A stretch of DNA of 64,000 nucleotides. Source: Sipunculus nudus (taxonomy: Eukaryota > Annelida > Sipuncula > Golfingiida > Sipunculidae). The translations under genes were made by a program, and so were the position numbers. Each line of letters opens with the position of its first letter. Position 1 is the first letter of the stretch. The stretch covers positions 14,558,576 to 14,622,575 of the forward strand of contig CM049309.1 in NCBI GenBank assembly GCA_026874595.1, in the 5' to 3' direction. Shown piece after piece: positions 5,101-61,440 of the stretch. The notes beneath the pieces are model-generated. The model was given only the letters and a program-made list of their open reading frames with translations. It had not been told where the DNA came from and did no database searches.

Positions 5101-8100
5101 CTCGGCCGGTGAGCTGTAATTCAAACGAAACGTAACAACAAAGGCTGCGTGCACACCCCGCTGGCTGGTTTCAGTTCTGCAGACAACAGATACATGGCTA
5201 CGCTAACACAGTCATAATGTCATAATCGAATTGGTCGATGATGCGAGAATGCAGAGGGAGCAATTTAAATTCAACCGGAAACTCATCAAACGCTTGAAGC
5301 GCGGCAAATGGCGGAGCCAGGATGCCTGTTGAGTGTTTGTTTATTGGCATCTGATTGGCTGCTTGTCACATCGTACGCACGTTTATTTCAGTGGACAACA
5401 AACCGCCATCTGGTGTCTAAATATATCATGAACGGTCAAAGCTGGCAGCGTGAAAATCAGTTGCTTCTTTAGAAGCGCAAGATTTCTGCTGCCTCAGGAG
5501 CGTAATGGATATGTTAATTGATGAATTAACAAAGACTTTGCTTAAATAGCTTAAATATTTGTTTAATTGCTTGCAAGGGCATGATAAAGAACAAATAGCA
5601 AGGTTAAAAAGATAATGTATAATGAATTTTGCAAAGCTGAATGTAATAGAAGAGAGATATATGGTTGGGAGTGGAGGTGTTTTCATGATGTTATCTCATA
5701 TAACTCCTTTTCACAGAGAGGGATAAAATAAAGGAGATTATGGTGACTCTCTTTGATGTACTTGTGATCGCTATCAGCCTGGGGTCCATGCTGCTGTGTT
5801 TGAGGTCCATCTGTAAGGCACAAAAGCTCAAGTGGGTAAGTAGGATCTGTCTAGTGGATAAATATTAATCTGACAAATGGTCTTTTTTTTTGTAATGGTC
5901 TTTTCAGTGGCCATCCTTCCTATGGAGAGGGGTTACAGGAAGAAGGCCCCTTCCTTCGACCACCCCCCCCCCCCCCCCCACCATGACCAATCATGCTTCA
6001 GGGCTTTAAAGAGACTGGGTTACCTGCACCTGGTACTCTACAGGTCATAGGGTTTAGGAATGGCCAAAGTGATTGTATATGTGACACTTTCTAATTCTTG
6101 TCATGACTGAGCATATTGAGGCTTTAATTCCATCAGTTAAGCTTAGCTAATATGACCGCTCCTATGTTTGTTATAGCGATAAGTAAGGCGAACTATCACA
6201 TTTCAGCGTACAATGTAAGTACCTGATGTGAGACCCCTGTCACATTAGGGACGCACTCTTTTTTTGTATGCAGGGCCTGAAAGTTTTCATTTAAAAATTT
6301 CTTTCCTGTTTAATTATTTTCTCCATTGCATGTTTTCTGATAGATTTTACTGAAGGCAGGCTTTTATTTTGCTCTCAGCATGGACTGATGGTTGCCATTT
6401 GGTGCTAATAAACAGTGTCTGTTACAATGGTCTTTCCCTGACACAATTTTCATAGAGTCACCACAGTTTGGAAAATAAACTAGAGTTTTTGCGATTTGTA
6501 TAAACAATTGTAATTTCATCATGTGTGTATGGTATATTATTTTAATAATCATTTATTATATTATTTTAAAAAATCTTTTCAGATGATGCATTTTTTAATT
6601 AAATTTGTATTTGGCCCAATAATTGCAATTAGTTTTTAATAAAAACTTAAAATCTCTTATCATTTGTGCTAGTGCTACTCTGGGTATAGGTGACCTGTAA
6701 TTATTGAATAACGGTTAACTCCTTTGTAAAAAGCATGATAATTAACATTACTTACAGTGGATATTTTTTAGCTCAGCTGACTGTAAGTCAACTGAGATAT
6801 AGGAATGGCACTTAATCTATCGTGGGCGTCCAGCCGGCCTTTAGCAGGACACCAATGGTAACTGCTAGTCCTAGACACTTCTAATTGAACATCCAGGGAA
6901 GTCAATAAAAAATCTCCTAAGAAACCTGAAATAAGGTCACTGTGACCTATATCCTTTGAGCTATCCGTCCATCCACACAAATTTGTTTCCAGATGGTAAC
7001 TCCAGGTTGGATTTACACATGTCACATGGATTTCAAACTTGTCTTACATATGGCCCATCACTTAAAAAAGGACCTATATGATTTTGGGGTCACAAGGTCA
7101 AAGTCAAGGTCACAGGACTCACTTATTTAAAAAGATTATGACTGCATTTTAAGCCAAGCTTTTCATCCAAAACTTTGCATCTTGCGCATTTAGCTGACTT
7201 GCCAGGGAGAGCATAAATGAATTTGAGGTCAAAGGTCAAGGTCACAGGGGCCATCTGTTCATGAATTAGTTTCCAGATGATAACTCCAGTTAAGTTTGAC
7301 ATATAGGTTTCAAACTGAATTTATATATGGCTCGCCACTAAAGTAAGAACTGTGTCGATTTTGGGGGGTCAAAGGTCATGGTCACAGGACCCATTTATTT
7401 TTATAAGAATGCATATGTATTTGAAACAAAATTGTTTTTGCAAACCTTCCATCTTCAAGGTATTTCTAACTTGCAAATATCGGAAGATTCTGTTCGATTT
7501 TTGGGTCATAGGGTCAAGGTCTAGGTCACAGGGCCCATCCATTAACAAATTAGTTCATGGATGATAATTCTGCTTTGGATAGCCAGATTGGCTGCAAACT
7601 TGATTTAATAATGACCCACCACTAAAGTCAATTCATTTTGATTTTCAGGGTCCAGAGATCAAAGGTCACAGGAGCGACATCTTTAAAAAGATTATGGATG
7701 CACTTTAAATCAAACTTTTCATCCCAAACTTGCCATCTTTCACACATGGCTTACTTGCCCAAAGTGAGGAAATCTGTAGATTTTGAGGTTACCTATTCAG
7801 AGGTCCAGGTCAAGGTCACTTTTTAAAAGACTGTGACAATAATCTAAATGCTTTAAGTTCAAGTATAATAAGTTCTAAGATTATTTGGTCACAAGGTCCT
7901 TGGTTAAGCACAGGACTGTCATTCTGAAAAATTTCTTTAAAAAATTCCTTATAGACAAATTCAGCTGAGCGTCGAGACCCATGGGTCCCTAGTTTTCAAA
8001 TACAGTCAGTCCCATTTAAATGAATATCATATTTGTCAACTGATTATATTCATTTAAGCGGGCTATTCAAATAAACGGGGTGTTAATCTTCAAGGTTGTA

Positions 8101-11100
8101 GATGTCACTATGATACTATGAATTGCTATCAGATGGCTTTACTTTTACTTGCGTGTTTCTAGTCTTTCTGCTTTGGATTTTTTTCCTTAAATGATGTTTC
8201 AACATTAGTTAATATTTTATTTATTTGTAATATCTACACCTTCTGCAGAAAAATACTGTATATTCACCTGTTTCCATTTATTATTGATTCAAATGAATCT
8301 CACTGCCAATGGCTGATAGCTTACCGATCACGTGAATATATAAAATGCTGTCAAAGGTTTAATACGATTCCTCAAGGATTCTGAGTTACCATGAAACATT
8401 AATTTGTTTCAATTAAGAAATAAAGAATTTCTGTGCATTCACCTGTTCGAGTATATTATCTGTAAAAAGTGGTGCTGCAAAAATGGCTGACAGCTTAATG
8501 ATCATGAGAATGTGTCTAAGATCATGAAGATCAGCAAAATTTATAAACACATATTGATTTTTGTAACACATATTTTCTTCTTTATTAACTCAGCTGACTA
8601 TAAGCCAACTGAGCTATAGTCGTGGTCCTTTGTCCGTCGTCCGTCCGTCCGTCTGTTAGACTGGCACGTTTTGAAACTGTTAGACCTACGAATCCAAAAT
8701 TTGGCACACTGTTAGATGTCCCCAAGATCTCCTACCAAACTAAAAATTGGGTCACTGCGACTTTGTTCCTTCGTGAAATTAAGGAAAAAACTCAAATTTC
8801 AATAAAAATCCTATTATCACACTTCAGGACTGCCTTATATCAAAACCACTGATCTGTTTTCCTGAATATATTAACCAGAAGTATTCTCCGATATATTTCC
8901 TATATTAACACTAGAACTAAGTTTGTTAAGTGTAATTTCTTGAAGTTATGAACCTTGACATAATGCACTGTGTAAAAAATCAGGAAAAATATTTGAGGTA
9001 ACCCTTCAAAGCTGTTGGGCTAGCAAAATCAAAGGCTAAATAGCGCACCAAGCAGTCAGTAGTCCGTGAGACGGTTGTCGCACATGAATATCCGGGATTG
9101 TTGTGCATGATGGACGAATTTTACTATACAATTACTCGATATATAAATTTATCAGATATTCATATAAATGGAGAATTTTTATTAAGAAGACATAGGAATA
9201 GGTTTTGGTTTTCATTATTTTATACAATTAAATGGGATATCCAGTTATATGATATACAATTAAACAGGACCGACTGTACTTCTGCTGCAATATAGATAAA
9301 GTTATTAGGCCAAGTCAAAACCTGTGTGACAATAGCACTCCTTTTCCAAATGTAAATAATATAAATGACATCAGCCCTCTTCCCTCTCCAAGGAATTTAT
9401 CAAATTCTTTACATAACTTGAGTTAAACACCATCCTCCTCATAAATCAGCTTATTTTAACAGACAAAACCAACATTTGTCTCCCCCTTCTTCCAAAGTAT
9501 ATTTTATGATCATGAATAACAGCTGAGCGCCATGACCCATGGGTCCCTTGTTTATTTCTCTTTTAATGTTAATTTCATGTTTTGTAGAATTTTCTTATTC
9601 TGATTTTCATATTAATATTTCATATATGTATTGACCATATTTTTGGATGTAATTCTTCTCAAGGAGGTAGTGAAGTTCTTTCAAACACGATTCAAGAAGT
9701 CGCTGTCCGTGTATGACCAGTGTGAGTTCTTCAACACCTGGTACTTCCTCATCATCATCAATGACTTCCTAACCATTACCGGGTCTGTGCTGAAAATTCA
9801 GATTGAGAGTAAGGTAAGGTTTTCTTTCAAGAAGCTTCAAGCATGAGCTTAATGTTACTGTGGTTGGCTTCATATTCGCGAGGCTGAAATTTCGCGATTT
9901 TTCTATTTTTAATGTTTTGCGAGGGTTTCATTTTCGCGATCTCACAAGAACCTAAATCAAATCTTTGGCAAAGCCATATACCTGTGTGTATTATAAAATG
10001 AGAATAAGTCATGAGTTTGTGACATTTTCTTATATAATGATGGGCCCGCACACACAGCATAGGTGGTTTAGTTCAAATTTAAGGCTTACATTTACCTATA
10101 CCTGCAAGGAAGTAATTTATTAAAAACAATTCTCTCTGTTCTAAACTATTACCATACAAGTATTGATTACACTAAATAAGAAGGACATTCTCAATTGGCC
10201 GATTATTCCCGAGGGTTGCATTTTCGCGATTATTTCCCAATCGCGAATATCGCGAAATTAAAACCCTCGCGAACAAAAAGGCAACCACAGTATTTTTCAA
10301 CATTTCCTATGTACTGTAACATTAATTGATAACATTATATCTAAGGGCCTGATCATACATATGAGTTACGATAACCTGCAACAGGTTCTAGGTGAAGGAA
10401 ACAGGCAGTTGTGGTGACTGGCTGCTCCTATTTGCATAAAAACAGTTGCCGTGACATTAGGAAAGCCTTTTGCATGAACATTGCACAACTACCAGTGACC
10501 AACTGCAACCTTTCTTGTTATGACATGTCGTAAAACCAGCGTAAGATCATCCATAACCATCTTACAACTAGTCATGTGGTCATGCGGTAGTCTTATAACT
10601 GCTAAAAGACCACCTTTAAGACTAATTGCTGGTTGTTACGGCATTATTGGTTGTTGGGACTGGGTAAAACTATTGTGAGTTCTGTATTATTGCAGAAAAA
10701 TGAATCTTAGGTGGACTTTGTTCAAGTTTAATAAATGATTTTTGGCTGAATTATTGGACCTTTAACAATGAAAGGGTTGTGAGATACTTAGGTAGACAAA
10801 GCTAGTAGATTTATTGTTGTAACAGACTAATTTCTCTGGGTATGTAAGCAGAGCTGTTCAGGCAACATAAATAATTAGTGTCTATAAATAGCTTGGCAGA
10901 TTGCCAACTATTTTAGATTTGACAACAGGCCAAATTTGAGTCTGTATATATTTCTAAGTTTTGCAGACTGCCAACTGTATCAGATTAGGCAACAGAACAA
11001 AAGTTCAGTCACTGCAGCCAGGTATAGGTCAAGAGTTCACTTATTGCAGTAGCTACACCTGGCACTCAGCCATTATTGACTTAGGGGGCAACTGCCTTCC

Positions 11101-14100: not shown

Positions 14101-17100
14101 ATATTCTATGTAATAACTATTTAAAAACTTAGAATTTTTTTATTTCATGTTGCAGCACCACTATGAGCATGGATTTCCAAAGAGTGATCTGTTTAAATTT
14201 ATTGATGAGTGTACAGACCATCCGACATCTCCGCTGTATCTGGAGGATGCAGACCCTTCATGTTTCAGCTGTCTAAACGGGTGAGAGCCGTTACCAGTTA
14301 AAACCATGACATTTTACAGCTACATTTAAAACGTCACCAGGTACTTGTTGATTTTTTCACATCTCAGCTGGCTGTAAGTCATCTGAGGTATAGGGATCAC
14401 CCTTCATAAGTCGGGCAGGCCATTAACAGGGCACTTATTGTAATTGTTAGACCTAGAACCTTCTGACTGTATATCAAGGGAAACCTGAAATTAGGTCAAG
14501 GTGACCTATATTCTGCAACCTATGTGCCAAAAACATGATTTGAGCACCCAGACAGTCAGAAGGAGCACAAATTATATCCTCTAGGCCTGGAATCTCCTAA
14601 TCAGTAATGTAACATTCAGAAAGGTCCTTAGAAACATGAAGTTAGGTGACTGTATATTCTGCAACCTTTAGGAAAAAAGATGTCATAAGAGCACCTTGAA
14701 TGTCAGATGGGCACAAATCAAATCTGTTAGGCCTAGAATCTTCTAACACAACATTCAGGGATGTTCTGTGCAAATATTGCTGAGCATCATGGTCCATGGG
14801 CCACTTGTGTCCACACACCAGTAAGACTTTCAGGCTAAATGAATATTATGCTTTCGAGCTTCTAAATTTTAGGGTAATATGCTTCTACCAGGAAATAACA
14901 GGCTGTCTTTTGATCAAGACCAGGGATTTTTTTGGGGGTGGGGGATCAGGGGAAGGAGATGAGTTATGGTTATATGGTCATGTTCTTTGCTGCTCTTATA
15001 GTTTTGTCTGTTTACAGTAGCGAGTGAATGTATCTCTTGCCTGTTGCCAGTACAGTACAAAAGATTTGAGGGGGGGGGGGGGGGGAGGAGGGATTCTCCT
15101 AACAAATTTTGTTCTGTGATCATTAGGAAAAATAATATTTAGTGCATCTTTAACGTTGGACAGGGCACAAATCATAACTGTTGGACCTTGAAACCTCATA
15201 TTTAAAATTCCAGGGAGGTTCTGTTGTAAGTTCTACTTAAACTTGAAATCAGGTCACTGTGGCCTATATTTGGTAAGCTGTGGGAAAGCTGATAATCAGA
15301 TAGTCAAAAATCAAAATAATTAGACCTTGAACCTTCTTACTTCAGATCAGGCAAGTTCCCTGGAAAGAAATCTCCTTTGAAACCTGAAAAAGGTCACTGT
15401 GACCTAAATTTTGTAAGTTATATGAAAGAACATGATTTTGGCATCCAGAAAGACAGATGTACACAGAACATAATATTTGGATCTAGAAACTTCTAACTTA
15501 ACATCTTGGGAGTTCCTTGTGAACTCTTCTGGGGAACATCAAATGATGTCACTGTGGGGTTAAAACTTGATTTTCAGCACATGATGTTATACCACGCAGA
15601 TTGTCAAGGTTACTTAACAAGAAATAATGGATTGCCTAGATATGTAAAAGACAGCTAAGCATCATGGCCCATAGGCCACTTGTTACATATTAAGTGCATA
15701 ATAATAAGAATAATACATAAGTATATTTTAGTATTAAATACACAGATACAATATTAGTTCATGTACTAATATATTTTGCAATGACCTTTTCTCATGTCCT
15801 TGTTATAAAGATCAACATAGAAATTACTATTGGAATAAATTCTGTTAGAATTAATTTATATGTGGTTGTACACAAAACCAACAATGGAATTTAAATATTT
15901 CAAGAATATCACAATGGAGGTGGTCAGCTTGACTAAGTAGGCTGGAGGGTGTACTTCTTATGTAAAAGAAACCCTGATGTATAATCAGTCACACCTCCCA
16001 AGTAAAACCTGGGTTTTGTATGATAAGCAAAGTCAGCATTATACAGTGATCTGACTCATTACTTGAGTGTGTTGATTACAGCCTTTATTTTTTGTATTTC
16101 AGTGGCAGTGGTTCAGCCCAGTCATGCCTAGACAAAATATTTTGTACAACTTGTTGCTGTGTCAGAGAGTAAGTACTGAAGGATGCTGTATTACGTTATT
16201 AACCCTTTACTGTTTACAAGCCACTAAAGAGCACTCAAAATGGGCCACTAGAATACCATGATATGTATAGATTCTTTCATGACAAAAATATTGCATATTA
16301 TTTCTAAGTTTCAATGATTTTCAATAATCTTCAGCAAACCCTCTTAGATGGAACTGTTGAAAATTTGATAAGGATACAAAAAAAGCTTGAAAAGATATGG
16401 CTGTTAGAGTTAATATAAATAGTGTCAGAATTTGTTGGAAATCTAAAATAAATGTAAACAGTAAAGGGTTAATAAACATAGTGCTTGTTTTCAAATAAAT
16501 ATATAAATTAGATGTAAAAATAGATAAATATATCTGCTATAGGATTTGTAATGATTTCACATATCATGTGACAGGAACCCCAGTTAAAAGGTATATTTAC
16601 AATGGAAAACCTGTACTGTTGTCACCTTCTAGACTTGAACAAATCATTATTTTTGTTTATTGTCGACTGATGGCGGCAGTCTGGTTTTATCTATATGGCA
16701 GACTGTGGTAACTCTGTTGCCTGAAAAACTTAAAATTTGTGGGAAAATATTTTACCCTAAACAATTTTGAACAGCTTATACATGAGTCTGCCTTTTACAT
16801 AGGATTTTGCAGTATATTTTCTGACAGAAATTTGGGAGTAGCCAGACATTTGCAGAGCATCAATGAAATTATTGATATCTTATGAATGATGTATTATAAA
16901 GCACATTACTTTTTAACATATTCTTAATCGGGGCTTAGTTCTGTACAGATATGATTTGATAATATATTCTCTTGACAAAAAATGCTTTTCCCCTTATTGT
17001 ATTGTTTAATCATTGATAATTTATGCATTAATAAATTATAATAGCATATACTACATATGATACTCTGTATAATTGAATAAATGCTGCAGGACCAAATATC

Positions 17101-20448: not shown

Positions 20449-20450
20449 TA

Positions 20451-21420: not shown

Positions 21421-23087
21421 CAATGCAGATATTGTGTATGGGATGATTTAACCTAGGGCATGTGTACTGTTCTGTACATTTCAGCTGGTATTTTCACTTA
21501 TATTTATTTTAAATAATGGATAAGATATTCTGTATATCATCATTAATCATCACACCAATTATTCACCACACCAATTTAATCATCACACCAATTTAATAAT
21601 TACACCAGTGTTGTGTAATTTTTTCCAATCCTTTCACCATCGATTATTAGTCATCCATTCATGGATAGCTCAAAATGACAAGCTCCTGAATTTAAGAGCT
21701 TTCTAAGTCGTGTAGGTGTACATTTAAAGGTTCTGTATACATTAAATAAACCTGACAAGATGGATATAATAATTTAACAACAAGCACTTAATGTTTAGCT
21801 GAGGATTCTTACATGGGTTTAAACAAGATTGGAAGGAACCTTTATAACTCGGCTAACTTTAATTCTACTAAGCTTTACTGATCACCCCTACCAGCATCAT
21901 CATCATCATGCATTTCATTTCCAAATTTTGTCATTGTTTTCTGATTTTTCCATTACTGTTTATGCATGATCCTAAATGTTGTTATGCTGTTCTCTTCTGA
22001 TATTTCTTATAAAACAGATTTTTAGGCAACAGTTGAATAGGAGGACATGAAAAGTATGGAGAAAAAAATGGCAGAAATCTTATTGTCGAGTACATTTCCC
22101 TAACAACAAAACCTGTATACATTTTTAAAAAGCATTTATTTCTATGTCATGATATAAAATATAACCGAGAATGCCATATACATATTTAGATGTATTTTGC
22201 ATTGTACCACATGTAGAAAAGGTTAAACATCATTATGTCATAATTGATGATACATCAAAATAACTGATATCTTTATCATTGAGTATTGAAATTTCAGTAA
22301 CCGATGGACTGTAGTTTGTTTCAATTCTGAGGCAGATATCTATTGTCAGTTAAGCATCTTGCACCATGCTTTGCAGTTACTTATAGGCATTTTTTTAATG
22401 GATTAACCATGGAACTGATATTCCTGTAAACCTAAATGTAGTTTAAGATATTATATATGTCAGACAGATGTCCTACATGCCCAGGTGCATGGTTGTGACT
22501 TGTCTGTTTGAATGAATGTACCGGTGTTTGTCTCCATCTATACTCGCTCTTACAGTGTGGTCAAGCAAGTATTTAATGTTGGTCAAATTTGGTGCAATTA
22601 TGTTATTGATTAAGTGTATTTGTTTTATATATATGTTATGCATATTATTAAGAAGCTCTATCATACTCTTGATTTGTGCATTATTTGAGTAAAAACTATA
22701 TTAATAAAATTCTGGTCTTCAGTTTTAATTTATTTAGTCTTCAGATGCAGTTTTTATGCACCCATCTATGAAAGTATACCCACAGTTCATCTGTCCATCT
22801 GGTAAGTTTTAGTGGCACCACGATAACTTACCATGGATTTGGCAGATTTAAAAGAAAATCATAACTTCTTATCAATAAAAAGTCTGGCTTGAGTTTAGAT
22901 TATAGACAAAAGCCACACATATTTAATGAGGTCAGGGGCTGGCAAATTTGAGTTGTTCCTGCAGTTACTTACCAGGAAAATGATGGATTTAATAGTATCT
23001 CACCTGAGGTTGATTCCCAGCAAAATCCATGCATATTTAATTAGGTCAGAGGTCACCATACTTTGGTGGCTCATGATGACTTCCCAA

Positions 23088-26000
23088 CAAGTGACCCAGG
23101 GGTCATGACGCTCAGCTGACCAGGAAGACATTGACAAAAGTAATTTTATCATCTGAATGTCAAATTTGAATGAAATACTTTTTCCAAACTTGACCTTTTG
23201 TATAAAATCATCCAATATTCATTGGGGTACTATGGAGCTCTGTAGCATGAAGGATATGGGTAACAGACGCCTATTTTCAAGGTTTACAAGATGACTTTTC
23301 AGGGGTTTCCCAGCATGTCAAAAAATAAAATTCTAGGTCCAGTTATTATGATTTGTGCCCTGTTAACAAATCCAAATGTTTATTCTGGGGGGTATTTCAA
23401 AGCCGCATAGGATGAAGGATATGGGTAACAGAGATGTAATTTCAGGTGCACAAGGAGACTTTTCAGGGGCCTCCCAGCATATCAAGAAAGGAGATTCTAG
23501 GTCAAGTCATTATAATTTGTGCTCTGTTAACAGATGACCAAATCTTTATTCTGGGGAGTACTTCGGAGCCCCAGAGCATGAAGGATATGGGTAACAGGGA
23601 CCTTATTTCGGGTTTCCATGTAGACCTTTTATGGGCTTCCCTGGAGGTGAGGACAGAAGATTCTAGGTCCAGTCATTATGATTTGTGCCCTGTTAATATA
23701 TGACCAAATCTTTATTCTGGGGGGTACTTCAGAGCCCCATAGCTCACAGAATATAGGTAACAGGGACCTTATTTTGGGTTTCCATGTAGACCTTTTATGG
23801 GCTTCCCTGGAGGTGAGGACAGAAGATTCTAGGTCCAGTCATGATTTGTGCCCTGTTTACAGATGACCAAATGTTTAAAGATCACAAAAGTAGAGAACAA
23901 AAATCGTAAAAAATAAAAAAAATATAGGTGGCGCCACCAATCTCCAGAAATTGATGAAACACTCCATGATAAATATCCATGCAAAGAATCATGGTGATTA
24001 ATGCATTAGTTGTTCAGATACTTGAGCTTTTGTATTAAATTTTGCATTATTCTGGGGGGTACTTCAGAACCCCATAGCTCGAAGAATATAGGTCACAGTG
24101 ACCTAATTTCAGGTTTACAAGGAGAATTTCCATAGACCTCCCAGGATGTCAAGTAAGAAGATTCCTGGTCTAGCGGTTACGATTTGTGCCCTGTTAACAG
24201 ACAGACGCCTGGATGGCCGGACGGACGACGGACAAAAGGTGATCCCTACAGCTCAGATGACTTTCAGTCAGCTGAGCTAAAAATTGAAAAAATACAGGTG
24301 GCGCCACCAGAATGCAGAAACTGATGAAACATTTCACGATCAATATCCATGCAAAGAATCATGGTGATCAATATAATAATTGTTCAGATACTTGAGCTTT
24401 TGTATCAAATTTTCCATTATTCTGGGGGGGTACTTCGGAGCCCCATAGCTCAGAGGTTATGGGTAACAGAGACCTAATTTCAAGTTTTTAAGGAAACTTT
24501 TCATGGGCCTCTCAGCATGTCAAGAGAGAAGATTCTAGGTCCAGTTGTTACAATTTGTGCCATGTTAACAGATGACCGCATCTTATGAGGTCTCAAAAAT
24601 AGAGAAAAAATTCGTAAAAATAAAAAAAATACAGGTGGCGCCACCATACTGCAGAAACTGATGACACATTCCATGATCAATATCCATGCAAAGAATCATG
24701 GTGATCACTGCAATAGTTGTTTAGATACTTGAGCTTTTGTATCAAATTGTCCATTATTCTGAGGGATACTTTAGATGACTTACAGTCAGCTGAGCTTAAA
24801 AAACTTAATGGTCAATATCCATGCAAAGAATCATGATGATCTCCGTATTAGTTGTTCAGATACTTCAGCTTTTGTATCAAATTGTCCATTATTCTGAGGG
24901 ATACTTCAGAGTCCTATAGCTTGAAGGATATGGGTAACAGAGACCTAATTTCAAGTTTCCACAGGCACTCTTCATGGGCCTCCTTGCATGACAAGAATGA
25001 AGTTTCTAGGTCCAGTTGTTGCAATTTGTACCCTCTTGATAGATAACATAGGTGGCGCCACCAGTCTGCAGGAACTGATGGAACATCTCATAATCAATAT
25101 TTATGCCAAAAATCATGACCATCAGTGATGTAGTTATTGAGATATTGAAGTTTTTGTATTAAATTTTTGACTACTCTAGGGGGGGTACTTTGGGGCCCCA
25201 TAGCTCGAAGGATATGGGTAACAGAGACCTAATTTCTGGTTTCCATGGAGACTTTTCATAGGTCTTCTAGTGTGTTGAGAATGAAGATTCTAGGTCCAGT
25301 CGTTACTATTTGTGCCATGCTAACAGATGACAGCATCCTTAAAGGTCTCAAAAATAGAGGAAAAAATCGTAAAAAATCGAACGATACAGGTGGCGCCACC
25401 AGTCTGCAGGAACAGATGACACATCTCATGATCAACAGTTATGCCACAAATCATGACCATCATTCAAGTAGTTAATGAGATATTGAAGTTTTTGTATGAA
25501 ATTTTTTACTTTTCTTGGGGGTACTTTAGGGCTCCATAGCTCAAAGAATATGGGTAACAGAGACCTAATTTTGGTTTCCATGGAGACTTTTCATAGGTCT
25601 CTCAGTGTGTCGAGAATGAAGATTCTAGGTCCAGTCGTTATGATTTGTGCCACGTTAACAGATGACAGCATCCTTAAAGGTCTCAAAAATAGAGGAAAAA
25701 ATCGTAAAAAATCAAACAATACAGGTGGCGCCACAAGTCTGCAGGAACTGATGGAACATTTCATAATCAATATTTATGCCAAAAATCATGACCATCAGTG
25801 ATGTTGTTATTGAGACATTGAAGTTTTTGTATGAAATTTTTGACTACTCTGGGGGGGGGGGGGGTACTTTGGGGCCCCATAGCTCGAAGGATATGGTTAA
25901 CAGAGACCTAATTTCTGGTTTACATGGATATTTTTCATGGACCTCTCAGTGTGTCAAGAATGAAGATTCTAGGTCCAGTCCTTACGATTTGTGCCATGCT

Positions 26001-29000
26001 AACAGATGACAGCATCCTTAAAGGTCTCAAAAAATAGAGGAAAAATCGTAAAAAATCGAAAAATAAAGGTGGCACCACCAGTCTGCAGGAAGTGATGACA
26101 CATCTCATGATCAATAGTTATGCCACAAATCATGACAATCAGTCACGTAGTTAATGAGATATTGAAGTTTTTGTATAAAATTTTTTACTTTTCTTGGGGG
26201 TAATTTGGGACTCTATAGCTCGAAGAATATGGGTAACAGAGACCTAATTTCTGGTTTCCATGGAGACTTTTCATAGGTCTCTCAGTGTGTCAAGAATGAA
26301 GATTCTAGGTCCAGTCTTTACGATTTGTGCCTTGTTAACAGATGTTTACATTTTGAAAAATCTCAAAAATAGAGAAAAAAATTCGTAAAAAATTGAACGA
26401 TACAGGTGGCGCCACCAGTCTGCAGGAAGTGATGGAACATCTCTTGATCAATATGTATGACAAAAATCATGACCATCAGTCAAGTATTTAATGAGATATT
26501 GAAGTTTTTGTTTGAAATTTTTTACTTTTCTGGGGGGGAAGTTGGGTCCCCATAGCTGGAAGGATATGGGTAACAGAGACCTAATTCTGGTTTCCATGGA
26601 GACTTTTCATAGGTCTCTCAGTGTGTTGAGAATGAAGATTCTAAGTCAAGTCATTACGATTTGTGCCTTGTTAACAGATGTTCACATTTTTAAAGGTCTC
26701 AAAAATAGAGAAAAAAATTCGTAAAAAATCGAAAAATACAGGTGGCGCCACCAGTCTTCAGGAACTGATGGAACCTCTCATGATCAATATGTATGCCAAA
26801 AATCATGACCATCAGTCAAGTAGTTAATGAGATATTGAAGTTTTTGTATGAAATTTTGGACTTTTCTGGGGGGTACTTTTGGGCCCCATAGCTCGAAGGA
26901 TATGGGTAACAGAGACCTAATTTCTGGTTTCCAAAGAGATTTTTCATGGACCTCCCAGGATGTCAAGTAAGAAGATTCCAGTTCTAGCAGTTACGATTTG
27001 TGCCCTGTTAACGGACAGACGCCCGGACGGTCGGACGGACGACGGACAAAAGGTGATCCCTATAGCTCAGATGACTTTCAGTCAGCTGAGCTAAAAAAAC
27101 GTAAAAAATAAAAAAAAATATAGGTGGCGCCACCAATCTCCAGAAATTGATGAAACACTCCATGATCAATATCCATGCAAAGAATCATGGTGATTAATGC
27201 ATTAGTTGTTCAGATACTTGAGATTTTGTATTAAATTTTGCATTATTCTGGGGGGTACTTCAGAACCCCATAGCTCGGAGAATATAGGTCACAGTGACCT
27301 AATTTCAGGTTTACAAGGAGAATTCCCATAGACCTCCCAGGATGTCAAGTAAGAAGATTCCAGATCTAGCGGTTACGATTTTTGCCCTGTTAACAGACAG
27401 ACGCCTGGATGGCCGGACGGACGATGGACAAAAGGTGATCCCTATAGCTCAGATGACTTACAGTCAGCTGAGCTAAAAATTGAAAAAATACAGGTGATCA
27501 ATATAATAATTGTTCAGATACTTGAGCTTTTGTATCAAATTTTCCATTATTCCGGGGGGTACTTCGGAGCCCCATAGCTCAGAGGTTATGGGTAACAGAG
27601 ACCTAATTTCAAGTGTTTAAGGAGACTTTTCATGGGCCTCTCAGCATGTCAAGAATGAAGTTTCTAGGTCCAGTTGTTACGATTTGTGCCATGTTAACAG
27701 ATGACCACATCTTATGAGGTCTCAAAAAAAGAGAAAAAAATTCATAAAAATAAAAATAAATACAGGTGGCACCACCAGACTGCAGAAACTGATGAAACAT
27801 TCCATGATTAATATCCATGCAAAGAATCATGGTGATCAATGCAATAGTTGTTCAGATACTGGAGCTTTTGAATCAAATTTTCCATTATTCTGGGGGGTAT
27901 TTCGGAGCCCTATAGCTCAGAGGTTATGGGTAACAGAGACTTAATTTCAAGTTTCCAAAGAGACTTTTCATGGGCCTCCCGGAATTTCAAGAGAGAAGAT
28001 TCTAGGTCCAGTCATTACAATTTGTGCCCTGTTAACAGATGACCACATCTCAAGAGGTCTCAAAAATAAAGAAAAAAATTCGTAAAAATCGAAAAAATAT
28101 AGGTGGCGCCACCAGACTGCAGAAACTGATGAAACATTCCATGATCAATATTCATGCACAGAATCATGGTGATCAATGCAATAGTTGTTCAGACACTTGA
28201 GCTTTTGTATCAAATTTTCCATTTTTCTGGGGGGTACTTCGGAGCCCCATAGCTCAGAGGTTATGGGTAACAGAGACCTAATTTCAAGTGTTTAAGGAGA
28301 CTTTTCATGGGCCTCTCAGCATGTCAAGAATGAAGTTTCTAGGTCCAGTTGTTACGATTTGTGCCATGTTAACAGATGACCACATCTTATGAGGTCTCAA
28401 AAAAAGAGAAAAAAATTCATAAAAATAAAAATAAATACAGGTGGCACCACCAGACTGCAGAAACTGATGAAACATTCCATGATTAATATCCATGCAAAGA
28501 ATCATGGTGATCAATGCAATAGTTGTTCAGATACTGGAGCTTTTGAATCAAATTTTCCATTATTCTGGGGGGTATTTCGGAGCCCTATAGCTCAGAGGTT
28601 ATGGGTAACAGAGACTTAATTTCAAGTTTCCAAAGAGACTTTTCATGGGCCTCCCGGAATTTCAAGAGAGAAGATTCTAGGTCCAGTCATTACAATTTGT
28701 GCCCTGTTAACAGATGACCACATCTCAAGAGGTCTCAAAAATAAAGAAAAAAATTCGTAAAAATCGAAAAAATATAGGTGGCGCCACCAGACTGCAGAAA
28801 CTGATGAAACATTCCATGATCAATATTCATGCACAGAATCATGGTGATCAATGCAATAGTTGTTCAGACACTTGAGCTTTTGTATCAAATTTTCCATTTT
28901 TCTGGGGGGTACTTCGGAGCCCCATAGCTCAGAGGTTATGGGTAACAGAGACCTAATTTCAGGTTTCCAAGGAGATTTTTCATGGAACTCCCTGGATGTC

Positions 29001-29150
29001 AAGTTAGAAGATTCCAGGTCCAGTGGTTACGATTTGTGCCTGGTTAACGGACAGACAGACGGACAGACGGACAGACAGACTGACAGACAGACGGAGGACG
29101 GACAAAGAGTGAACGCTGTAGCTCAGATGACTTTCAGTCAGCTGAGCTAA
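23088..29150 (-). mobile_element. 6-kb composite tandem array of the hairpin-ended repeat
   Basis: On the minus strand this starts at 29150 with TTTAGCTCAGCTGACTGAAA and TCATCTGAGC, followed by a (GTCC/GTCT)n run, and ends at 23088 with GGTCAGCTGAGCGTCATGAC then CCCTGGGTCACTTG. Between lie about four units of about 168 bp (23229-23900) and then about 14 units of about 338 bp. Each 338-bp unit holds a 168-bp core (gggtacttcggagcc to ctgttaacagatgacc) and a second half with GGTGGCGCCACC. Extra copies of the 5' end sit inside at about 24250-24285, 27055-27098 and 27437-27475, with a partial one at about 24775, so several elements are stacked head to tail. Short ORFs here are repeat artefacts. 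Confidence 0.85.
27554..28958. repeat. apparently exact 675-bp tandem duplication within the array
   Basis: Sequence from about 27554 repeats at +675 without visible difference over more than 650 bp; open frames at 27630/28305 and 27714/28389 translate identically. Each duplicate spans two 338-bp units. Other neighbouring units differ by many bases. Confidence 0.85.
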
Positions 29151-29159
29151 ATATCTTTG

Positions 29160-40671: not shown

Positions 40672-41283
40672 TATATTTATATGTCGAGGGAAGAATGAGA
40701 ATCTCGAAAGATCCGGAATCCTCCCGGGAAAAATGAGAATTCTGATTTTTCCCAGGAATAATGGGAATTTCCATTCTTCCCAGGAAAAATAAGAATCATT
40801 TCATACTATGATTTGATTCTCATTTTTCCCGGGAAGAAAGAGAATACTGATTTTTCCCAGGAAAAACCAGAATTCTTATTTTTTCCAGCCAGCTCCATTT
40901 TGTAAAATGATATCCTTTTAATAGTTAAGGTGGGTTAAGTTTGCTAATTTTACTATGTTATTATAACCAAACTTTAATGTTATTAGCTGACCATTATTCC
41001 TAAAAGAACAGTAACATTTTTTGTCATGAAAAAAAGTAGAAAACACATTTCTGTTAAAATCAGTTTTATTCACACTTGATTTTATATAATAAGGAATAAA
41101 CACATCTTATACCCGTTAGTTGAAAATAAGCACACCTGATATTTACATAGTAGTTCTTAGCACACATGATTCAGTTATAAAGATTTCTAGATGTGAATAT
41201 TTTTAATCTAAATTTCAGTGAAGATAAAGGTCTATGTTAGATTGACTAACAAATAATATATATATATAAATATATATAAATAA

Positions 41284-41349
<66 letters not shown>

Positions 41350-41815
41350 ATTTTTGTCAACTTCATATTTTATTCACATATTTTTATTTTGTGTGAGTGT
41401 ATTATTTATTTCTTTTTTCAATACTTGAACAGTTCAGAATTAATGTGAAAGGAAGATGATCAAAGTTTCTTTCAAAAAAAAGAGAAATAAGTATGAAAAA
41501 ATTTAAAAGAGTTAAGCTGGCATCAATAATGCCCATTCTTCCTGGGAAGAATGAGAATTCTCATTTTTCCCAGGTTTGAATTTCAAAACTGAATTCCAAT
41601 CTCTCCTGGGAAAAATGAGAATTCTCAATTTTCCCGGGAGAGACTGGAATTTTCATTTGTCCCAGGAAGAATGAGAATTCTCATTCTTCCTGGGAAGAAT
41701 GGGAATCCCTTCATACCATCTCTGGATTCTCATTTTTCCCGGGAAAAATCAGAATTCTAATTTTTCCCAGGAGGATTCTGGATTTTCCCAGATTCTCATT
41801 CTTCCCTTGACATAT
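40672..41815. mobile_element. fold-back element built of CCCGGGAAAAATGAGAATTC palindromes
   Basis: The left arm (about 40672-40895) starts tatgtcgagggaagaatgag; the right arm (about 41525-41815) ends with the near-complement ctcattcttcccttgacata. Both arms consist of repeated gaattc-centred palindromes (tcccgggaaaaatgagaatt and complement), so each arm can also fold on itself. The core holds a (TA)n tract at 41253-41345. No ORF. Confidence 0.78.
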
Positions 41816-41963
41816 ATATTATAAATTTTTCGTCAAAGTTGTTAATTATATATGGATGCTTAAAGCACAGAATGTGTGACTGTATATTTGATGGTAAACA
41901 GAATGTTTTAATTCTTGTATCTAGTCATCAGACAAAAGTACTTTTCTTTTCTCCTAGAGTTTT

Positions 41964-43872
41964 TTAGCTCAGCTGACTATAAGTCATCTGAGCTATAGTC
42001 ATGGTCCATTGTCCGTCGTCCGTCCGTCTGTCCGTCCGTCCGTCCGTCCATCCGTAGATGTGGCACGTTTTGAAACCGTAGGACCTATGAATCCAAAATT
42101 CAGCATAATGTTAGATGTCCCCAAGATCTCCTACCAAGCCGAAAACTGGGTCTTTGCGACTTCGTTCCTTTGAGAAATTAAAGAAAAACCTCAATTTTTT
42201 ATTAAAATCCTACTTTCACACTTCAGGACTGCCTAATATCAAAACCACTCATCTGTTTTTCCTCATATTTACCATAAATATTCCTCTATATAGTTCCTAT
42301 GTACATGCCAGAAATTAAGTCTGTAAAGTATAAATTCTTTAAGTTATGGGCCCAAACATAATGGACTTTGTAAAAAATCAGGAAAAATAATAACTCACTT
42401 AAAATGAAAAATTTTGAAACTAGAGTCTATTTTCTCAAGTATAATACTATGTTTAATTAAGATTTAATTGTTTACCCAAAATTAGATATGAATTTTGTAA
42501 ATTTTTTAAGTTATTAGCATAAAAAAAAAATCAGTACCTTAAATTTTGCCCAACTTTGACCATGGCACGTTTTTTTCCTGTAAGCACCATAGATTTAATT
42601 TTCACAGCATGTAAACATAAATATTTAGTTTGTCTAAATCTGAAATTTGAAAATGAAAGCTTGAAAATTAAGCTAGTTATTGATTTTTTTTTTCTGTAGT
42701 CACTTGCTTTGATTACAGATGCAGGGTCCCACTCCAGGTCACTGGAAGTCAGCTATGCCAGGGTTTCTGATTTGTTACAGTCATTGGGGGAGATCCCCTG
42801 CTGTGACAGGTGTACAGTTATTCTCATATCACCACCCCAATCACCCCCCCCCCCTCCCCCCCCCCCCCCGCAAACCCAACCCACCAAGTGTTATGCAGTA
42901 ATTGTTATTGTTTTCACTGTATCTCCTTAATTGTAATGCTGTTTCCACTCCGATATGCAAAAACTTTCCTTAAAAAAATAATTTAAGGTGTAATCCAGAA
43001 GATGCAATGTTGTGTAATATAGCATTTTTAAAGAAATCAATTTTCTTTTAAATGATTTTAACAAATATAAATGAACCCATCAGTATGCTTATTATTATAA
43101 AATATGAAGCACATTATGGATAAATTAAGACACAATTAAAAATTGTGAAATCTAAATCAAGTATTATTTTTAGATATTTATTGTTTTGCAGATTTAAAAG
43201 ATATATTTTTGTGGTAAAAAATAAATAAACATTTGTATGCATGATGTGGTGTTATCTGACAAGATTGAGATTTATGATGATGCAATTGAGAATTATGAAT
43301 CAACTTTTATATTCAGATATATATGTTAAATTGGAAATGTATAGAAATATAAACTTAAATTAGAAAATAATTGATGTGATAAAAAAATCAGGATTTAATA
43401 CAAACATTTGTTCATTATTTTCCTGCCTCAGCAGAATTTGAGATCAGGCTTTGTTTGCCCTGTTTTATGTTGTTAATTAGCTATATTTCAGCTGTATACA
43501 TTTCATGAAAAAAATACATATATAATTAAAAATATATATTATGCAAAAAAATAGATTCAATTGAACAAATGTGTAAACTACTGAAATGTCAACAGTTAAT
43601 CGAAAAACCAACTAATGATCATGGTAATAGTACAGATCATTTGTTCACAAACTGCTCACATGCTTTAGTTTCAACATTAGGAAACACATGGTCAGGTCAC
43701 AAAATATTTTTTGCAACAATTTCTTGCTCATCAATACAAACCAATCATATAAACCAACCATGGCCTTTATTACCTCTTCCTCTTACACTTTATCTCCATT
43801 AGATATTATTTTAGATTTTTACCTTCAAGGTTAACGTCAGCTGAGCACAGTGACCCATAGGTCCCTTGTTAT
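41964..43872 (+). mobile_element. hairpin-ended bivalve repeat, copy 4, ending 80 bp before TRMT13
   Basis: Starts TTTAGCTCAGCTGACTATAA then GTCATCTGAGCTATAGTCAT. It is followed by (GTCC)n and a 450-bp region matching the copy at 8588 (tggcacgttttgaaac, atgttagatgtccccaagat). It ends GTCAGCTGAGCACAGTGACC then CATAGGTCCCTTGTT. About 1.4 kb in the middle is not shared with the 8588 copy and contains the candidate exon at 42700. Confidence 0.7.
42700..42809 (+). CDS. candidate exon upstream of TRMT13
   Basis: Bounded by a polypyrimidine tract with tctgtag and a possible donor gtgtac. It encodes SLALITDAGSHSRSLEVSYA then RVSDLLQSLGEIPCCDR, without stops. The phase allows joining to 36178-36255 before it and to 43953 after it, where it would read nine more codons to TAA. 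It could be a TRMT13 leader exon, part of another gene, or chance. It lies inside the span of the repeat at 41964-43872. Confidence 0.25.
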
Positions 43873-53000: not shown

Positions 53001-56000
53001 ATATTTTTTATAATTCCTCTCCTTATTTTGGAGTTGCTGTGCATGCTCAGGATTGAACCTCTGACTACCATTTTAAAAATAGAAAATTTAACATATAAAA
53101 TTTTAATACTCTTTAAGAGTGACAACCAAAAGCAGTTTTACCATTAGAAATGATTATGGATTTCCTACTAACCAAATAACTCTTTCTCACTTCAGCAATA
53201 ACTTATTAATACCAATTTGTGTCACCAGGTGTCTGCATCATTGCAGGAGACAGATGCCTGGTCAAGTAATGTCATTACATGAAAATATGTGCTAGTTGTA
53301 CTGCTGTGGTAGTACACAAAGTAAATACCTTTTACTTGAAATTATATTCCTTTAAACAAAAACAGGGGAACATCTGCATATATATTTTTAGGCTGAAAGA
53401 TACTTGTAAAGAATATTCTTAAAACAGTTATTGAGGAAAACATGTGGACAGGATACTGGGACAGACTGTACCGTTTTGAGCTGTGGTGAAACTTATTTAT
53501 TCTGCCACATTCCTTGAACAGTACAGAGAAACCAGTTTTATGAGACCACCATATGGGGCTGACCAGAAATGGTCTTAATTCACAAGTGGTCTTATTAGAC
53601 AGGTCAGTTTTAACAAATGTGAATGCTTTCAGTCCACCCAACAGTGGTATTAATGGACAGGTGGTCTTTAAGACAGGTTCCACAATATTCCACTTTAAAA
53701 TAGTAAATCAGTGTGAAGTATTGTCCTTTAACACTCATACAACAACCCAATCTTCTACTTTGAATTATACAGGTGTACATTAAGTGTACATTTTGATATG
53801 TTTTTATCATACCTGTGAGTATATATGATGTTTTCATGTAATGACATTACTTGACCAGGCATCTGTCTCCTGCAATGATGCAGACACCTGGTGACACAAA
53901 TTGGACAACAGCATGGTCTCTAGGTTAACCCATACTATCTCAAAAATGGCAGGAGCTAGCATCACTACATTTTAAGCAAGAATCAGTCATCTTTCAAACT
54001 CTATTGGATTGAGCTTATTTGGGGCCATCTGCATTAACTTAGATTTTACAGAGAAAAAGCTAAAGAAAAATTTACTATATATTTTTTCTGTTATCAGGCT
54101 TCTCTGATTGGCCACATGGAGAAGGCAGGACTGCTTCACGATGATGCGGTTTATGTAGAATTTGGTGCTGGCAAAGGTAAGAAGCATGGTTCATTCACAG
54201 TCAGTGGATCTCCTCTCACTCTCTCTTTGTAACTTTTGGTATGAAAACTTCAGTTGATCAGTTATGAATTTCTCTTTAATTTCCTCATTCCACCGATATG
54301 AGTAAGAGATTGGTCAGTAGTGAAATTAATATATTTGCATGGTGGTTCTTATAAATCTACAATGCATACTTTAATTATTGTTTAACAATGAGAGTTTTAT
54401 AATACACTTTAAAATGCATATCCAAAATAATAGTAAGTGTGCAAACTGATGAAAGACAACATTAGTGTTCACAGAATAATTGCCTGACAAGATATATGTA
54501 AAATATGAGAATATTATAAAATTAGCTTGCTGTTTTTTCATGAAATATGATGCTATATATACTATAATGAAAGAAGGAATAATTGCCATTATGGTGTTCA
54601 TTATTATATTCAGGTGCTCTGTCTCATTGGGTCCAGCTCGCTCTTCGTGACTGTAAAAACACACAATTCCTGCCAGTAGAAAAGGCCAGTGTTCGTTATA
54701 AGGTAAGCTGGTAGAGGGCTCAAAAGATATCTGCAAGGTTATAACTAGTGGTTGAAATCAGTCATAAGATCATAATGATGATTGAAAGATAAAAAACAAA
54801 CAATGATTGATTATAAATCAATTATTTTATGTACGGTGAAATATAATGTATATTACTGTGAAACATGCTTTATAGAATTATATCTAAAATATCAACCAAG
54901 TAAATTCAGTCTATCTTGTACATCAAGCTGAAAGGTCAAGGTAATGGCCGGGGTGTTGACACTTACTAACTGCATAAGGTTAAGTTTTAATGTTGTTCTC
55001 TGTTTTGTGCATTGTCTTTCTTATATCTCTGACAAAATATGAATATTTTCTTAGGATAATATGACTTCTTTGAATTTGCATACATAATCATTTGCGATTG
55101 ATTTTGCAAAAATGTAATCAATTTAATTGATAATGAAAGAAAACAACGAATCATCAGTATGAAAGATTAACTGGCACACCACTAGTAATAACAAGAGGTT
55201 CATGCTTTAAAGTTTGGACTAACATAGGCAAATATGGTTGAATCTATATCTAAATTTATGTCACACACCTGCTGAGGCCACTCCTTGGATGTACCCATGT
55301 TGGTTTGGGACTGTTGAGAATGGGGAGGGATTTCCCATATCTTCCCATAAATCCTGAGAAATTTTACATTATTTTGAAATGGGTCTTTTACAAGGCCATC
55401 TATCAGGAAATACATGAACTATGCATGAAGGAGTATGCTTGTAGACATAAATGGTGAATCCAAAAATATTTTTATGTTTATATAACCAAAAACAGAAGAT
55501 TGGTCTAAGACATTAAAACTGATTGATGGAACAAGCCACTGGAATACCTGTACATACAATCAGTAAGCATTCAGATTGGATAGAAAAAAACTTTTTTGAG
55601 TCATTATGGTTAGCATGGATGAAAACTTAACCTTAGGCTGCGGCAATCAATAATAAAGTGAAGATATAATTCAAATGAATAAAATAATAATCAATAAACT
55701 TACAGCTGCAGCGGGAGGAGTTAAGGTTGTTATCTTTAAAATTCTGGAAAAAAATCTGTAATTTGATAGTTTCACTTCTTGTTAAAGGGGACTATTCAAA
55801 TATCTGACTACCGGTATTCTGATATTAACTAGTCTGTTGAACCGTTTAGGCCAGAAAATGCTGATCCCACCACACACCTAAAGGCTGTTCATTTTCTTTA
55901 TATCCACAAATTTATATTATGTGGGGGGGGGGCACGGCAAAATAATACAAACACATTCAGTGAGGACCTCTGATGGCATGTCAGACAAACAAGAGTTTAG

Positions 56001-59000
56001 CGAATGGCATTTTTGCAACTAGTGACCTTTTAACTTGCCCACATGTGCAACTACCACCTTAGGTTACATGGTTTTACCATTTGTCAACATTGTTGTGTTT
56101 ACTAACAGTTTATATATAAACAAGCTCATATATCCATGGAAGAGGCATTATAAGACCATTTCTTAACAGGAAGTACTTCCAGTTCATTAATGTATACCCT
56201 GAGTAAGCCAGAAATCACCTACATTGTACAGAAAAGGAAGGTGAATAGCTGGCTTTAAGTTCTTGATATGGTAAGTTTTTGAGTTTGTTGTAGGTTGAGC
56301 ACTTGAATGAATCAACTGTTTTACTGTTTTTGAAGAAAGACAATTACCACAAAGGAGAAGACCAGGGGCCCAGCTTTGAGAGGTTACGTATGGACATTGA
56401 ACACCTTTGTCTGTGTAAAGTACCTCTCATAGAAAATACCAAGACCCCAGTCATTGGTATCGGAAAACATCTGTGTGGGGGTGCCACAGGTAGGAGAGCT
56501 AGTTAAAGACTTATAGTACTTGAGTTTTTCTTTTTTTTTAAACATATTTTTTCTGGGCTACGTGACAGGGTGGAAACACATGATTATCCTGGCGTCAACC
56601 AGGCTCTGTGTAAGGCATCAGCGTGTAACACTGAGGAACCCCCTAAAGGTGCACTCGTTCATGAGTGAATTTCTACTTTTTCTTCACCATCTCCCTATCA
56701 AACCTGCAGAGTGCTCACCGATGGTGGGGGCCATTCATGAAAAATCTCACTGCCCCTTGGCTGAGATTCGAACACACCAAAATTCGAACTCGGCTTTGAG
56801 CCCTATGCTCAACCCCTAGACCACAGAAGCTGGTTTCATGAGAAATTCAAGATGATAAAATGTGACAGATAAATTCCTTTCCAGAAAAATTCTAAAATCA
56901 CGTCTGCATCTGAGGAAATAAACCTTCAAGGATTGTTCACCTTAACAAGATGCCCAGTAGTCTGCTTGTTGTTCTTGCCTGATGAGATGCACACAAGTTT
57001 GTGATGATTAGTGTCAAATGATCGAATCTAAGTTAGATATGTTTCCAATACAGGATTGTATGGAAACTTCAGCAACAGAAAAGGAAATCTCCAATTCCAA
57101 CACAAGTTTTATTTTTAAAGGCTTTAGATTTACAGATTTTTTTTATCAGAATCCATTAATTGCCTTTTATATGTGAATATTGATATATATATATATTTCA
57201 TTGGTGTCTTTGACTGCTACACTATAGTTTACATGTTGTGACAAAATAGACTGTTTTTACATATATTAGAGTAATTGTTTGCACAAAATTATTGTAACGT
57301 ATAACATCTGTTTTCTTCAAAATAATTGCCAGAGAACCTGATTTATTCACAGCACTGCAGGAATTTCTTTTATGGAGTTTATCGAATAAAAATAGTAAAT
57401 AAATATAACATTTTCAAGTGATAAAGCTACTGATGGATGCAACAAAAGAGAAGTGTAAACCTGCATTATGTGTCAAGTCTGATAAATGTATAGATTATGA
57501 TCTTAGTACTAGTATTCACTCACATTATATTTATTCTTCATTGGCTTGAAAAAATCAGAAAAAAATAATATTTTATCTAAAATTTGTAAAATTTAATTCA
57601 TTTACATCAGAAAAAAAAACCACTATGCATTTATTTGGTTTTGTAAAAACAAATTCATTTAGATAAGATAGAATACAGTATGAGCCTAGACATCTGTGAA
57701 ACACAACACCTGTGCAGGTACTGAAACATGTTGAGAAAAAATGTGTCTTTGGTTTTGATATGAGCGGCACATAAACACTTTAGCTTTTATAATACTGGTA
57801 GATTATTTGCAGACTTGGCATTAAGGTGCATGGTGATAGCTGAGGAAGAAACAAACCAAACAAAGGATGGATCAAGGTTTGTGTTTAAGATGTGGTAGTT
57901 TATTGTTGCCATTATTAAATTACATTAATTAAATGATAATTATAATTAAATAACTTTCCAAAATTTTTAATTATTCTCAGACATATCGTTACCTTTCATT
58001 TACAATTTGTATGAAAAGTTTTCTGCACACCTGGGGGGGGGGGGGAGATATTATGGATGTTAATGAATTCTGATAAAAGTAGAGAAGTCCCAACAAATGG
58101 CCCTTAAACTCTGTAATCTGCACACTCTAATATCTACACAAAATGTATCATCCTTCTTTTATATATTTTACATTTTTTCAGCCTTATTGAGGGTATAACT
58201 TTAGCCCTCTGCTGTCATCATCGCTGTGAGTGGCCTAGCTATGTCGGGAAACAGTTCTTTAAACAGTGTGGGCTGGGACCAAGAGAATTCTACCTGCTTC
58301 GCAGTATGACCAGTTGGGCGACCTGTGCAAGCACTTCTGCAACAAAGGATAAGCCACCTGAGGTTGGAGATAAGCCACATCAGGATGGAGATAAGCCACC
58401 TCAGGATGGAGATAAATCAGCAGAGAAACCAGTTGCGAATGCAGAAAATCAGGAGAAAAATACCAGCTCCCAGACTTACAACCACTTCAGGTATGTGCTT
58501 GTCAGGGTAAGGGATTAATTTTAGCTAAAAGGACTTTGACTTTCGTGTGGTAGAACGCACTCTCCCCCGGTGACTCAGGTTCAATCCCCAGCGTGGCTAT
58601 AAGAGTGGGTTGTAGTGGCTCATCCAAGGTCGGTGGTTATCTCTTGGTTCCCTTGTTTCCTCCAACCCTACAGACAGACTACCCAACACCACCATCTCAG
58701 CCATAGAGAGAGCCTTGTATTAGTTTTTATAAATAGTTGTACAATCCATGGATAATAAATAAGTTTATATCATATAATAATTAAAATAACCTGGTTGCCT
58801 GTGTTTACCCATATAAAACCAGTATATAACATGTTGCATTAAAAGTGACTGATATATTAATCAAGAAAATAACAGACATAGACACCAAGGCAGAGCTGTT
58901 CAGTGTTTCAATCCATGGTTAAATATACACAAAAATGTGGACATATATCATTAAACACAAGTCCAATAGTGAAAAGAAGCTGGGATAATACTTTTTGGTG

Positions 59001-60134: not shown

Positions 60135-60140
60135 AATAAA
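60135..60140 (+). terminator. putative TRMT13 polyadenylation signal
   Basis: AATAAA about 660 bases after the stop codon, the first canonical hexamer on this strand. Position-based call only. Confidence 0.4.
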
Positions 60141-60329
60141 ATATGTTGAACAAAACATCTTGTTGTTTTCTTTTAACCATGGCTGTTTGTTATTTCATAT
60201 ATAACATTCATATATAACTGATTTAAGATGAATGGGGAGGGGGCTGGGAGGAACAGAATTATTTCAGTACTCCCTCCTCTCATGGCAGGAGACCAGTTTC
60301 ATCACATGACTGATTTGTGATTATATCCT

Positions 60330-61440
60330 GCAGGTAGCGTCATATCGACCCTCTGGCATTACGGCCAGATTACTGGCGCCAGAGTGTCTTGACATCTTCC
60401 AACATGACATTCAAGGAGGTCCCGAGTAAATATCCGTGGAAACCTAAAACTAGGTCATGGTGACCTATATTCTGCGAACTACGGGCCAAAATGTTGATAT
60501 TTAGCACCCAGACTGTCAGACAGGGCACATAACTTAACTGTTGGCATTAGAATCTTCTAACTTGACATCTAGGGAGGTCCTTGAAACGTCTCCCTGGACA
60601 CCTGAATTTTGGTCACTGGTATTGGGCCTGTTATTGAACCCCAGAATATTCAACCATATGATAGAAAAGCCCCAGTATCTAAATAAGTAATGCATTGATT
60701 CTTTCTAACCATGGAGTGTTTCATCAATTCCTGAAGACTTGTGGCGCCACCTTTATTCTGTCTAATTTTACGTATTTTTCTATATATTGAGACCTTCAAA
60801 TGATGCAGTACAGTCGTTAACGGGGCACAAACGGTAAACGTTGGACCTAGACCCATGTAATATGACATCCAGGGATGTCTTGGCAAGCCTCCTTTGATTC
60901 CTGAAATTTATAAACTGATATAGTCAGAAGAGTACAAATCAATACGGTTGTACATAGAACCTTCTAACTTATAATTCAAAGAGGCCTTAATCTCCTTCAA
61001 CCCCTGAGATTAGGTCTCGATGATCCATATTCTGTGAACTTCAGGCGGGAATCCTGATTCTGAGCAACGAGAAAGTCTGGCAGGGCAAAATTTGTAACTG
61101 TTGGATCTGGAAATGTCTTTATTAATGTTGAGGGAGGTCTTTAAAAAATCTCCTTAGACATCTGAGGTAAGGTCACTCTGACGCATATTCTGCAAGAGAT
61201 GAAAAAAAGAACATGAACACCCTATAAGACAAATTTGCATGATTGGTTATACAGTTGGACCTAGAAATTTATAATTTGATTGAGATCCAGGGCAGTTCCT
61301 GTAAAAACTCTTTGGAAACATGAAATACTGTCACATTGACGTATGTTCTGTGAGCTATGTGGAAGAACATGATTTCAGCACCCTATTAGTCTGAAAGGCT
61401 ATGGGCAGAAAGCATGATTTTGAGCACTCTGGAAGTCTTT
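60330..61440 (+). mobile_element. degenerate copy of the bivalve repeat family, no clear ends
   Basis: Units of about 150-170 bp with acctagaa..cttctaactt, ggtcatggtgacctatattc and gagcaccctg resemble the inside of the copy at 14361. One half-unit carries tgtggcgccacc (60740). A perfect AGGTCA-TGG-TGACCT lies at 60452-60466. Neither hairpin end is visible. Confidence 0.6.

Follow-up and report, generated by a model that had tools for sequence, protein, structure and literature searches.

The six perfect AGGTCA-N3-TGACCT palindromes found in the window, i.e. the whole 64-kb stretch of DNA that was analysed, all sit at an equivalent position within a single family of tandem monomers, ~140–166 bp in length. 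This family forms the core of elements with ends of the HINE (non-autonomous Helentron) type; its palindromic site has evolved slowly in dispersed copies and is lost from most copies of one local array. We consider it probable that the palindrome is an ancestral, moderately constrained box of the HINE core monomer that resembles a protein-binding site.

Every coordinate that the original prediction gave for the six palindromes was recovered, as was the near copy at 15251–15265. In sequence, all six 15-mers match the oestrogen response element GGTCAnnnTGACC. A chance origin was ruled out, as the largest count of perfect sites in 100 dinucleotide shuffles was 0; when up to two mismatches were allowed, the window yielded 13 matches where 2.24 would be expected. 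The sites at 24090 and 27286 lie on minus-strand copies, and after turning, their flanks agree with those of the other sites. The monomers holding these two sites are 97% identical. As the six sites correspond to one another within a single repeat family and two of the monomers are this similar, they represent about five lineages. The sites are real but go back to a single inherited feature, so the earlier figure of 0.004 expected occurrences cannot be read as if the events were independent. In the hand-outlined elements (13.3 kb), the half-site AGGTCA, in either orientation, was counted 35 times, whereas base composition predicts 5.4; in the remaining sequence, it was counted 32 times, with 18.5 predicted.

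To describe the family, we built a profile from nine seed pieces of ~165 bp, selected by the presence of the site with at most two mismatches. In the window, it detected 32 monomer copies or pieces (nhmmer, E<1e-5) at five places: 6.9 kb, 14.4–14.8 kb, 15.2–15.6 kb, 23.2–29.0 kb and 60.4–61.4 kb. When the 15 site columns were masked in a model trained on the same 32 copies, which it therefore recovers by construction, just two weak hits were added (E 0.001 and 0.27); this gives no sign of many missed copies without the site. Two distant monomers were recognised in further elements. The one in E3 (8.7 kb) aligns to consensus columns 1–121 of 144 and reads GGGTCACTGCGACTT at the site position, and the one in E4 (42.1 kb) aligns to columns 1–101 of 144 and reads GGGTCTTTGCGACTT; in both cases, 0 of 500 shuffles aligned as well. 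No match was found in the genome contigs searched. Two viral-contig matches, which contain the same G+C-rich stretch and agree with the monomer model along 27 bases, were taken as chance, and the viral contigs searched with the 5′ end gave no match.

The carriers follow the HINE plan: a 5′ subTIR hairpin, a GTCC microsatellite, a tandem core, a complementary 3′ subTIR and a palindrome. In all, 26 of the 32 copies lie within elements that have at least one such end, and the remaining 6 lie in the fragment E7, which has none. An end-profile search (profiles built without the 5′ end of E4 and the 3′ ends of E3 and E4) revealed recurring 5′ ends of the form AGCTCAGCTGACTG-AAGTCATCTGAGCT, in most cases followed by a GTCC-type microsatellite, and recurring 3′ ends in which TCAGCTGAGC precedes a GACCCATGGGTC-like palindrome and a CTTGTT-like terminus. 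The 5′ subTIR AGCTCAGCTGA was matched at 9–11 of 11 positions at the 8 5′ ends examined; 10 are listed on the main strands, and two partial ones were excluded from scoring. Its complement TCAGCTGAGC was matched at 7–10 of 10 positions at all six 3′ ends, and a palindrome-like stretch comes after every one of them. Two 5′ ends folded better than shuffles (z −2.6 and −3.7), and two 3′ ends folded no better than theirs (84 and 105 of 200 equally good). GTCC/GTCT runs follow the 5′ ends of the array, E3 and E4 and are eroded or absent in E1 and E2; T runs precede several 5′ ends. No Rep or helicase of an autonomous Helentron was detected in 10 translated pieces, which cover a small part of the window. 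The prediction had placed all the palindromes inside hairpin-ended repeats. This holds in part: no end was recognised for the sequence surrounding 60452, and that of 15251–15405 has a 3′ end alone.

Table 1. Palindromic sites and carrier elements in the window (element outlines drawn by hand)
Feature	Position	Strand	Description
Element D	3434..4420	+	Drawn by eye; 301-bp units that bear GGGTGACCTTGACCT and boxes resembling GGTGGCGCCACC, a hairpin-like 5′ end and a GTCC-like microsatellite
Element E1	6765..7998	+	5′ hairpin end, one palindrome monomer, about six ~140 bp GGTCA-run units, 3′ subTIR and palindrome
Perfect site AGGTCACTGTGACCT	6934..6948		Opening monomer of E1
Element E3	8582..9553	+	HINE ends; single distant monomer, GGGTCACTGCGACTT at site
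Element E2	14356..14815	+	HINE ends; three monomers or pieces
Perfect site AGGTCAAGGTGACCT	14493..14507		Opening monomer of E2
Element E2b	15150..15690	+	3′ end present, 5′ end not found; three monomers or pieces
Near copy AGGTCACTGTGGCCT	15251..15265		One mismatch; in E2b
Perfect site AGGTCACTGTGACCT	15391..15405		In E2b
Array	23080..29155	-	Four 5′ ends and a 5′-end fragment (~24.8 kb), a single 3′ end; 19 monomers of the palindrome family; higher-order unit of 337 bp
Second palindromic box GGTGGCGCCACC	23927..28788		14 copies (10 perfect), in the alternate half of the 337-bp array unit
Perfect site	24090..24104		Monomer 24027–24178, adjoining an inner 5′ end (24283) of the array
Perfect site	27286..27300		Monomer adjoining an inner 5′ end (27479) of the array
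Element E4	41960..43872	+	HINE ends; single distant monomer, GGGTCTTTGCGACTT at site
Fragment E7	60370..61420	+	Six monomers or pieces; ends not recognised
Perfect site AGGTCATGGTGACCT	60452..60466		First monomer to survive in E7

Elsewhere in the window, exon-like frames that match TRM13 tRNA methyltransferase were observed on the plus strand at 45319–45834 and 58117–58515 (Pfam E 1e-11 and 3.6e-18). They indicate a eukaryotic host, and the HINE plan together with monomers of ~165 bp may hint at a mollusc. A 49-bp tandem repeat spans 47656–48492 (17.1 copies, 96% matches), and inverted repeats at 53212–53904 (77-nt arms, 99%) and 40675–41819 (94-nt arms, 88%) are possibly MITE-like.

Direct half-site runs, which had also been predicted, do exist: a DR1-like run begins at 7226, and GGGTGACCTTGACCT occurs at 3592, 3893 and 4194. 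The runs at 7.1–7.8 kb (type C) and 3.5–4.3 kb (type D) belong to monomer types other than the palindrome monomer (type A), which corrects the prediction. These types were compared by alignment against shuffles that preserve single-base make-up alone. Kinship of A and C was rejected, with scores not above those of shuffles (17 vs 18.5, and 16 vs 17.5 with the motif masked). The alignment of A and D scored 31 against a shuffle mean of 20.4 (sd 3.2; 6 of 500 as good) and fell to 18 against 20.1 after motif masking (419 of 500 as good); thus, this likeness rests on the motif. In E1, the units of type C follow the palindrome monomer at 6951–7830, and the 3′ half of the opening monomer itself (6951–7004) resembles such a unit, the switch coming directly after the palindrome. 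Counted over the window, the box GGTGGCGCCACC has 12 perfect copies and 7 with one or two mismatches (23927–28788, 3737, 11214, 60740 and 63899). It is present in several elements, and the copies at 11214 and 63899 lie beyond the outlined ones.

Whether conservation in the site exceeds that of its flanks depends on which copies are considered. All 12 site positions are present in 27 of the 32 copies, 8 of them dispersed and 19 in the array; five incomplete ones were dropped (14581, 14724, 15477, 60536 and 60838), three of which reach the site and are damaged there. Among the dispersed rows that have letters, identity to the locus-balanced consensus reached 0.897 in the site; the 14 columns upstream gave 0.78, the 12 downstream 0.815 and the remainder 0.70. 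The difference between the site and its near flanks gave p=0.013 in a Fisher test on cells, which are not independent of one another. In the array, by contrast, identity was 0.75 in the site, 0.717 in the rest and 0.871 in the 14 upstream columns.

These figures bear directly on the possibility that the site is simply ancestral and seems to decay slowly owing to chance, to the small number of lineages and to rates that vary along the monomer. The small number of lineages and the position of the site within a wider conserved block are consistent with such neutral inheritance, as are the lack of excess conservation in the array and the loss of the site from 17 of the 19 array monomers and from half of the complete dispersed copies. 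On the other hand, four of the eight dispersed copies are perfect, where the flank identity of the individual copies would predict 0.17 (4 of 11 when the three damaged incomplete copies are added), and so are 6 of all 27 complete copies, against 0.81; within the array, 2 perfect sites were found and 0.64 expected. None of 1000 random sets of 12 columns was as conserved as the site in the dispersed set. When a tree was computed with the site left out, its eight terminal branches for dispersed copies carried 9 site differences against 26.1 expected (Poisson 1e-4), where the differences are hand-entered departures from the consensus and the branch lengths are estimates, some of them long. Taken together, this makes the neutral account possible but, in our view, doubtful.

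Among the 130 windows of the 6-N3-6 form in the dispersed set, the 12 fixed columns ranked 2nd by pairwise identity, and no other window had at least three identical copies (4 of 8 in the site). With the variable spacer counted in, as a plain window of 15 columns, it ranked 12th of 130 by pairwise identity, and by identity to the consensus, it came 5th, behind four windows that overlap it. As the windows overlap, ranks alone carry little weight. On the site-free tree, the perfect copies are scattered (4 label changes vs a shuffle mean of 5.6), which is expected if the site is ancestral and frequently lost.

Position within the element may matter as well, which we note with reserve. Perfect sites were observed in 5 of 7 first (5′-proximal) monomers and in 1 of 20 others. 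When two first monomers that are near-duplicates of each other were counted once, the ratio was 4 of 6 to 1 of 20 (p=0.005); the label "first" was assigned by hand, and E7 has no 5′ end. The first monomers of the array (24027, 26862, 27224 and 28879) show 0.77–0.84 identity to the family consensus, vs 0.63–0.77 for the other array units.

According to the reading that we prefer, a constrained box in the HINE core, rolling-circle copying by a Helentron acting in trans would spread the monomers along with the element. Unequal exchange would then have amplified a derived monomer at 23–29 kb, where 10 array monomers read exactly AGGTCTCTGTTACCC. In the dispersed copies, the site, set within a wider conserved block of ~40 bp, would be retained through recognition of its half-sites by a sequence-specific protein; that the half-site letters are preserved there favours such recognition. 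The most natural candidate recogniser would be a dimeric GGTCA-binding host factor, putatively a nuclear receptor. According to PMC7492417, related HINEs can have unrelated core repeats, so the core is not essential for mobility as such. Any benefit of the site would act via expression or chromatin; alternatively, the apparent constraint could stem from the small sample. About five lineages are present within 64 kb, and the search seeds were picked by the site itself.

WAWNTRGGTCA is the consensus used for comparison with ROR/Rev-erb-type receptors, and it was matched on both sides in 4 of the 6 sites (3 lineages). This makes such receptors candidates beside ER, although the outer flanks are A+T-rich in any case. 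Together with the exact match to the oestrogen response element, it makes binding of the palindrome by a nuclear receptor plausible at the level of sequence. An ER-like DNA-binding domain from a snail is reported to bind GGTCAnnnTGACC in a gel shift, but mcERR did not bind the ERE (PMC3778743). The form amplified in the array breaks both half-sites. We find it rather unlikely that a host ER, ROR/Rev-erb or related receptor binds the palindrome, be it to the advantage of the element or after co-option of the site by the host. Less likely still is a scenario in which the HINE family would have seeded an animal genome, probably that of a mollusc, with inverted ERE/RORE-like sites, maintained by purifying selection in 5′-proximal monomers and bound by a constitutively active receptor, thereby helping the element or rewiring host genes. 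Among the titles and abstract openings listed by literature searches, which cover few subscription journals, none dealt with receptor sites within the core repeats of HINEs. Should the host be a mollusc, mobile copies bearing the exact site would pinpoint one location of many EREs, and copies with the intact site would offer a clean contrast to those with AGGTCTCTGTTACCC in binding tests.

The suggestion that the palindrome is kept for its hairpin or cruciform shape, which would aid repeat replication or recombination, we judge very unlikely: a single strand can fold into a 6–7 bp hairpin (−3.9 and −4.5 kcal/mol, equalled by 16 and 4 of 200 shuffles, respectively), and palindromes are reported at or near the junctions of some mollusc repeats (PMC5139131), but none of the 27 site strings carries a compensating change, the main array form reduces the paired positions from 6 to 3, and the array that was amplified is the one mostly devoid of symmetry. 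Such loss without compensation argues against the idea, put forward in the original prediction, of a palindrome useful to the element as such.

In vertebrates, transposon-borne nuclear-receptor sites are known, i.e. repeats that bear receptor-type motifs. They belong to another class of element, and the sites in the window are candidates by sequence. Drosophila DINE-1 and the mite HINEs share the end architecture and the class of mobile element with the carriers studied here, but the passages of PMC4067079 that were compared, by description, mention no receptor-like palindrome for them.

With pearl and the BIV160/Cg170 satellites, the likeness to AGGTCA-N3-TGACCT is one of description, not of letters: as presented in PMC5139131, two motifs at set places in a monomer of ~160 bp are well conserved between related monomers, which otherwise diverge, and in the pearl-related element DTC84, a palindrome close to the junction of the repeats is conserved. 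The palindrome of the window could concretely represent one of the motifs conserved in mollusc core repeats. A further resemblance is to Cg_HINE of Crassostrea gigas, as described in PMC7492417 and compared by description rather than by monomer letters. One array in the window differs from it in its multiple 5′ ends and its higher-order unit of 337 bp. Shared with Cg_HINE are the 5′ subTIR, the complementary IR and the GTCY/GTCC-type microsatellite, the core monomers of 140–180 bp in short arrays, the 3′ subTIR followed by a palindrome, apparently the T-rich insertion sites, and the location in and near genes.
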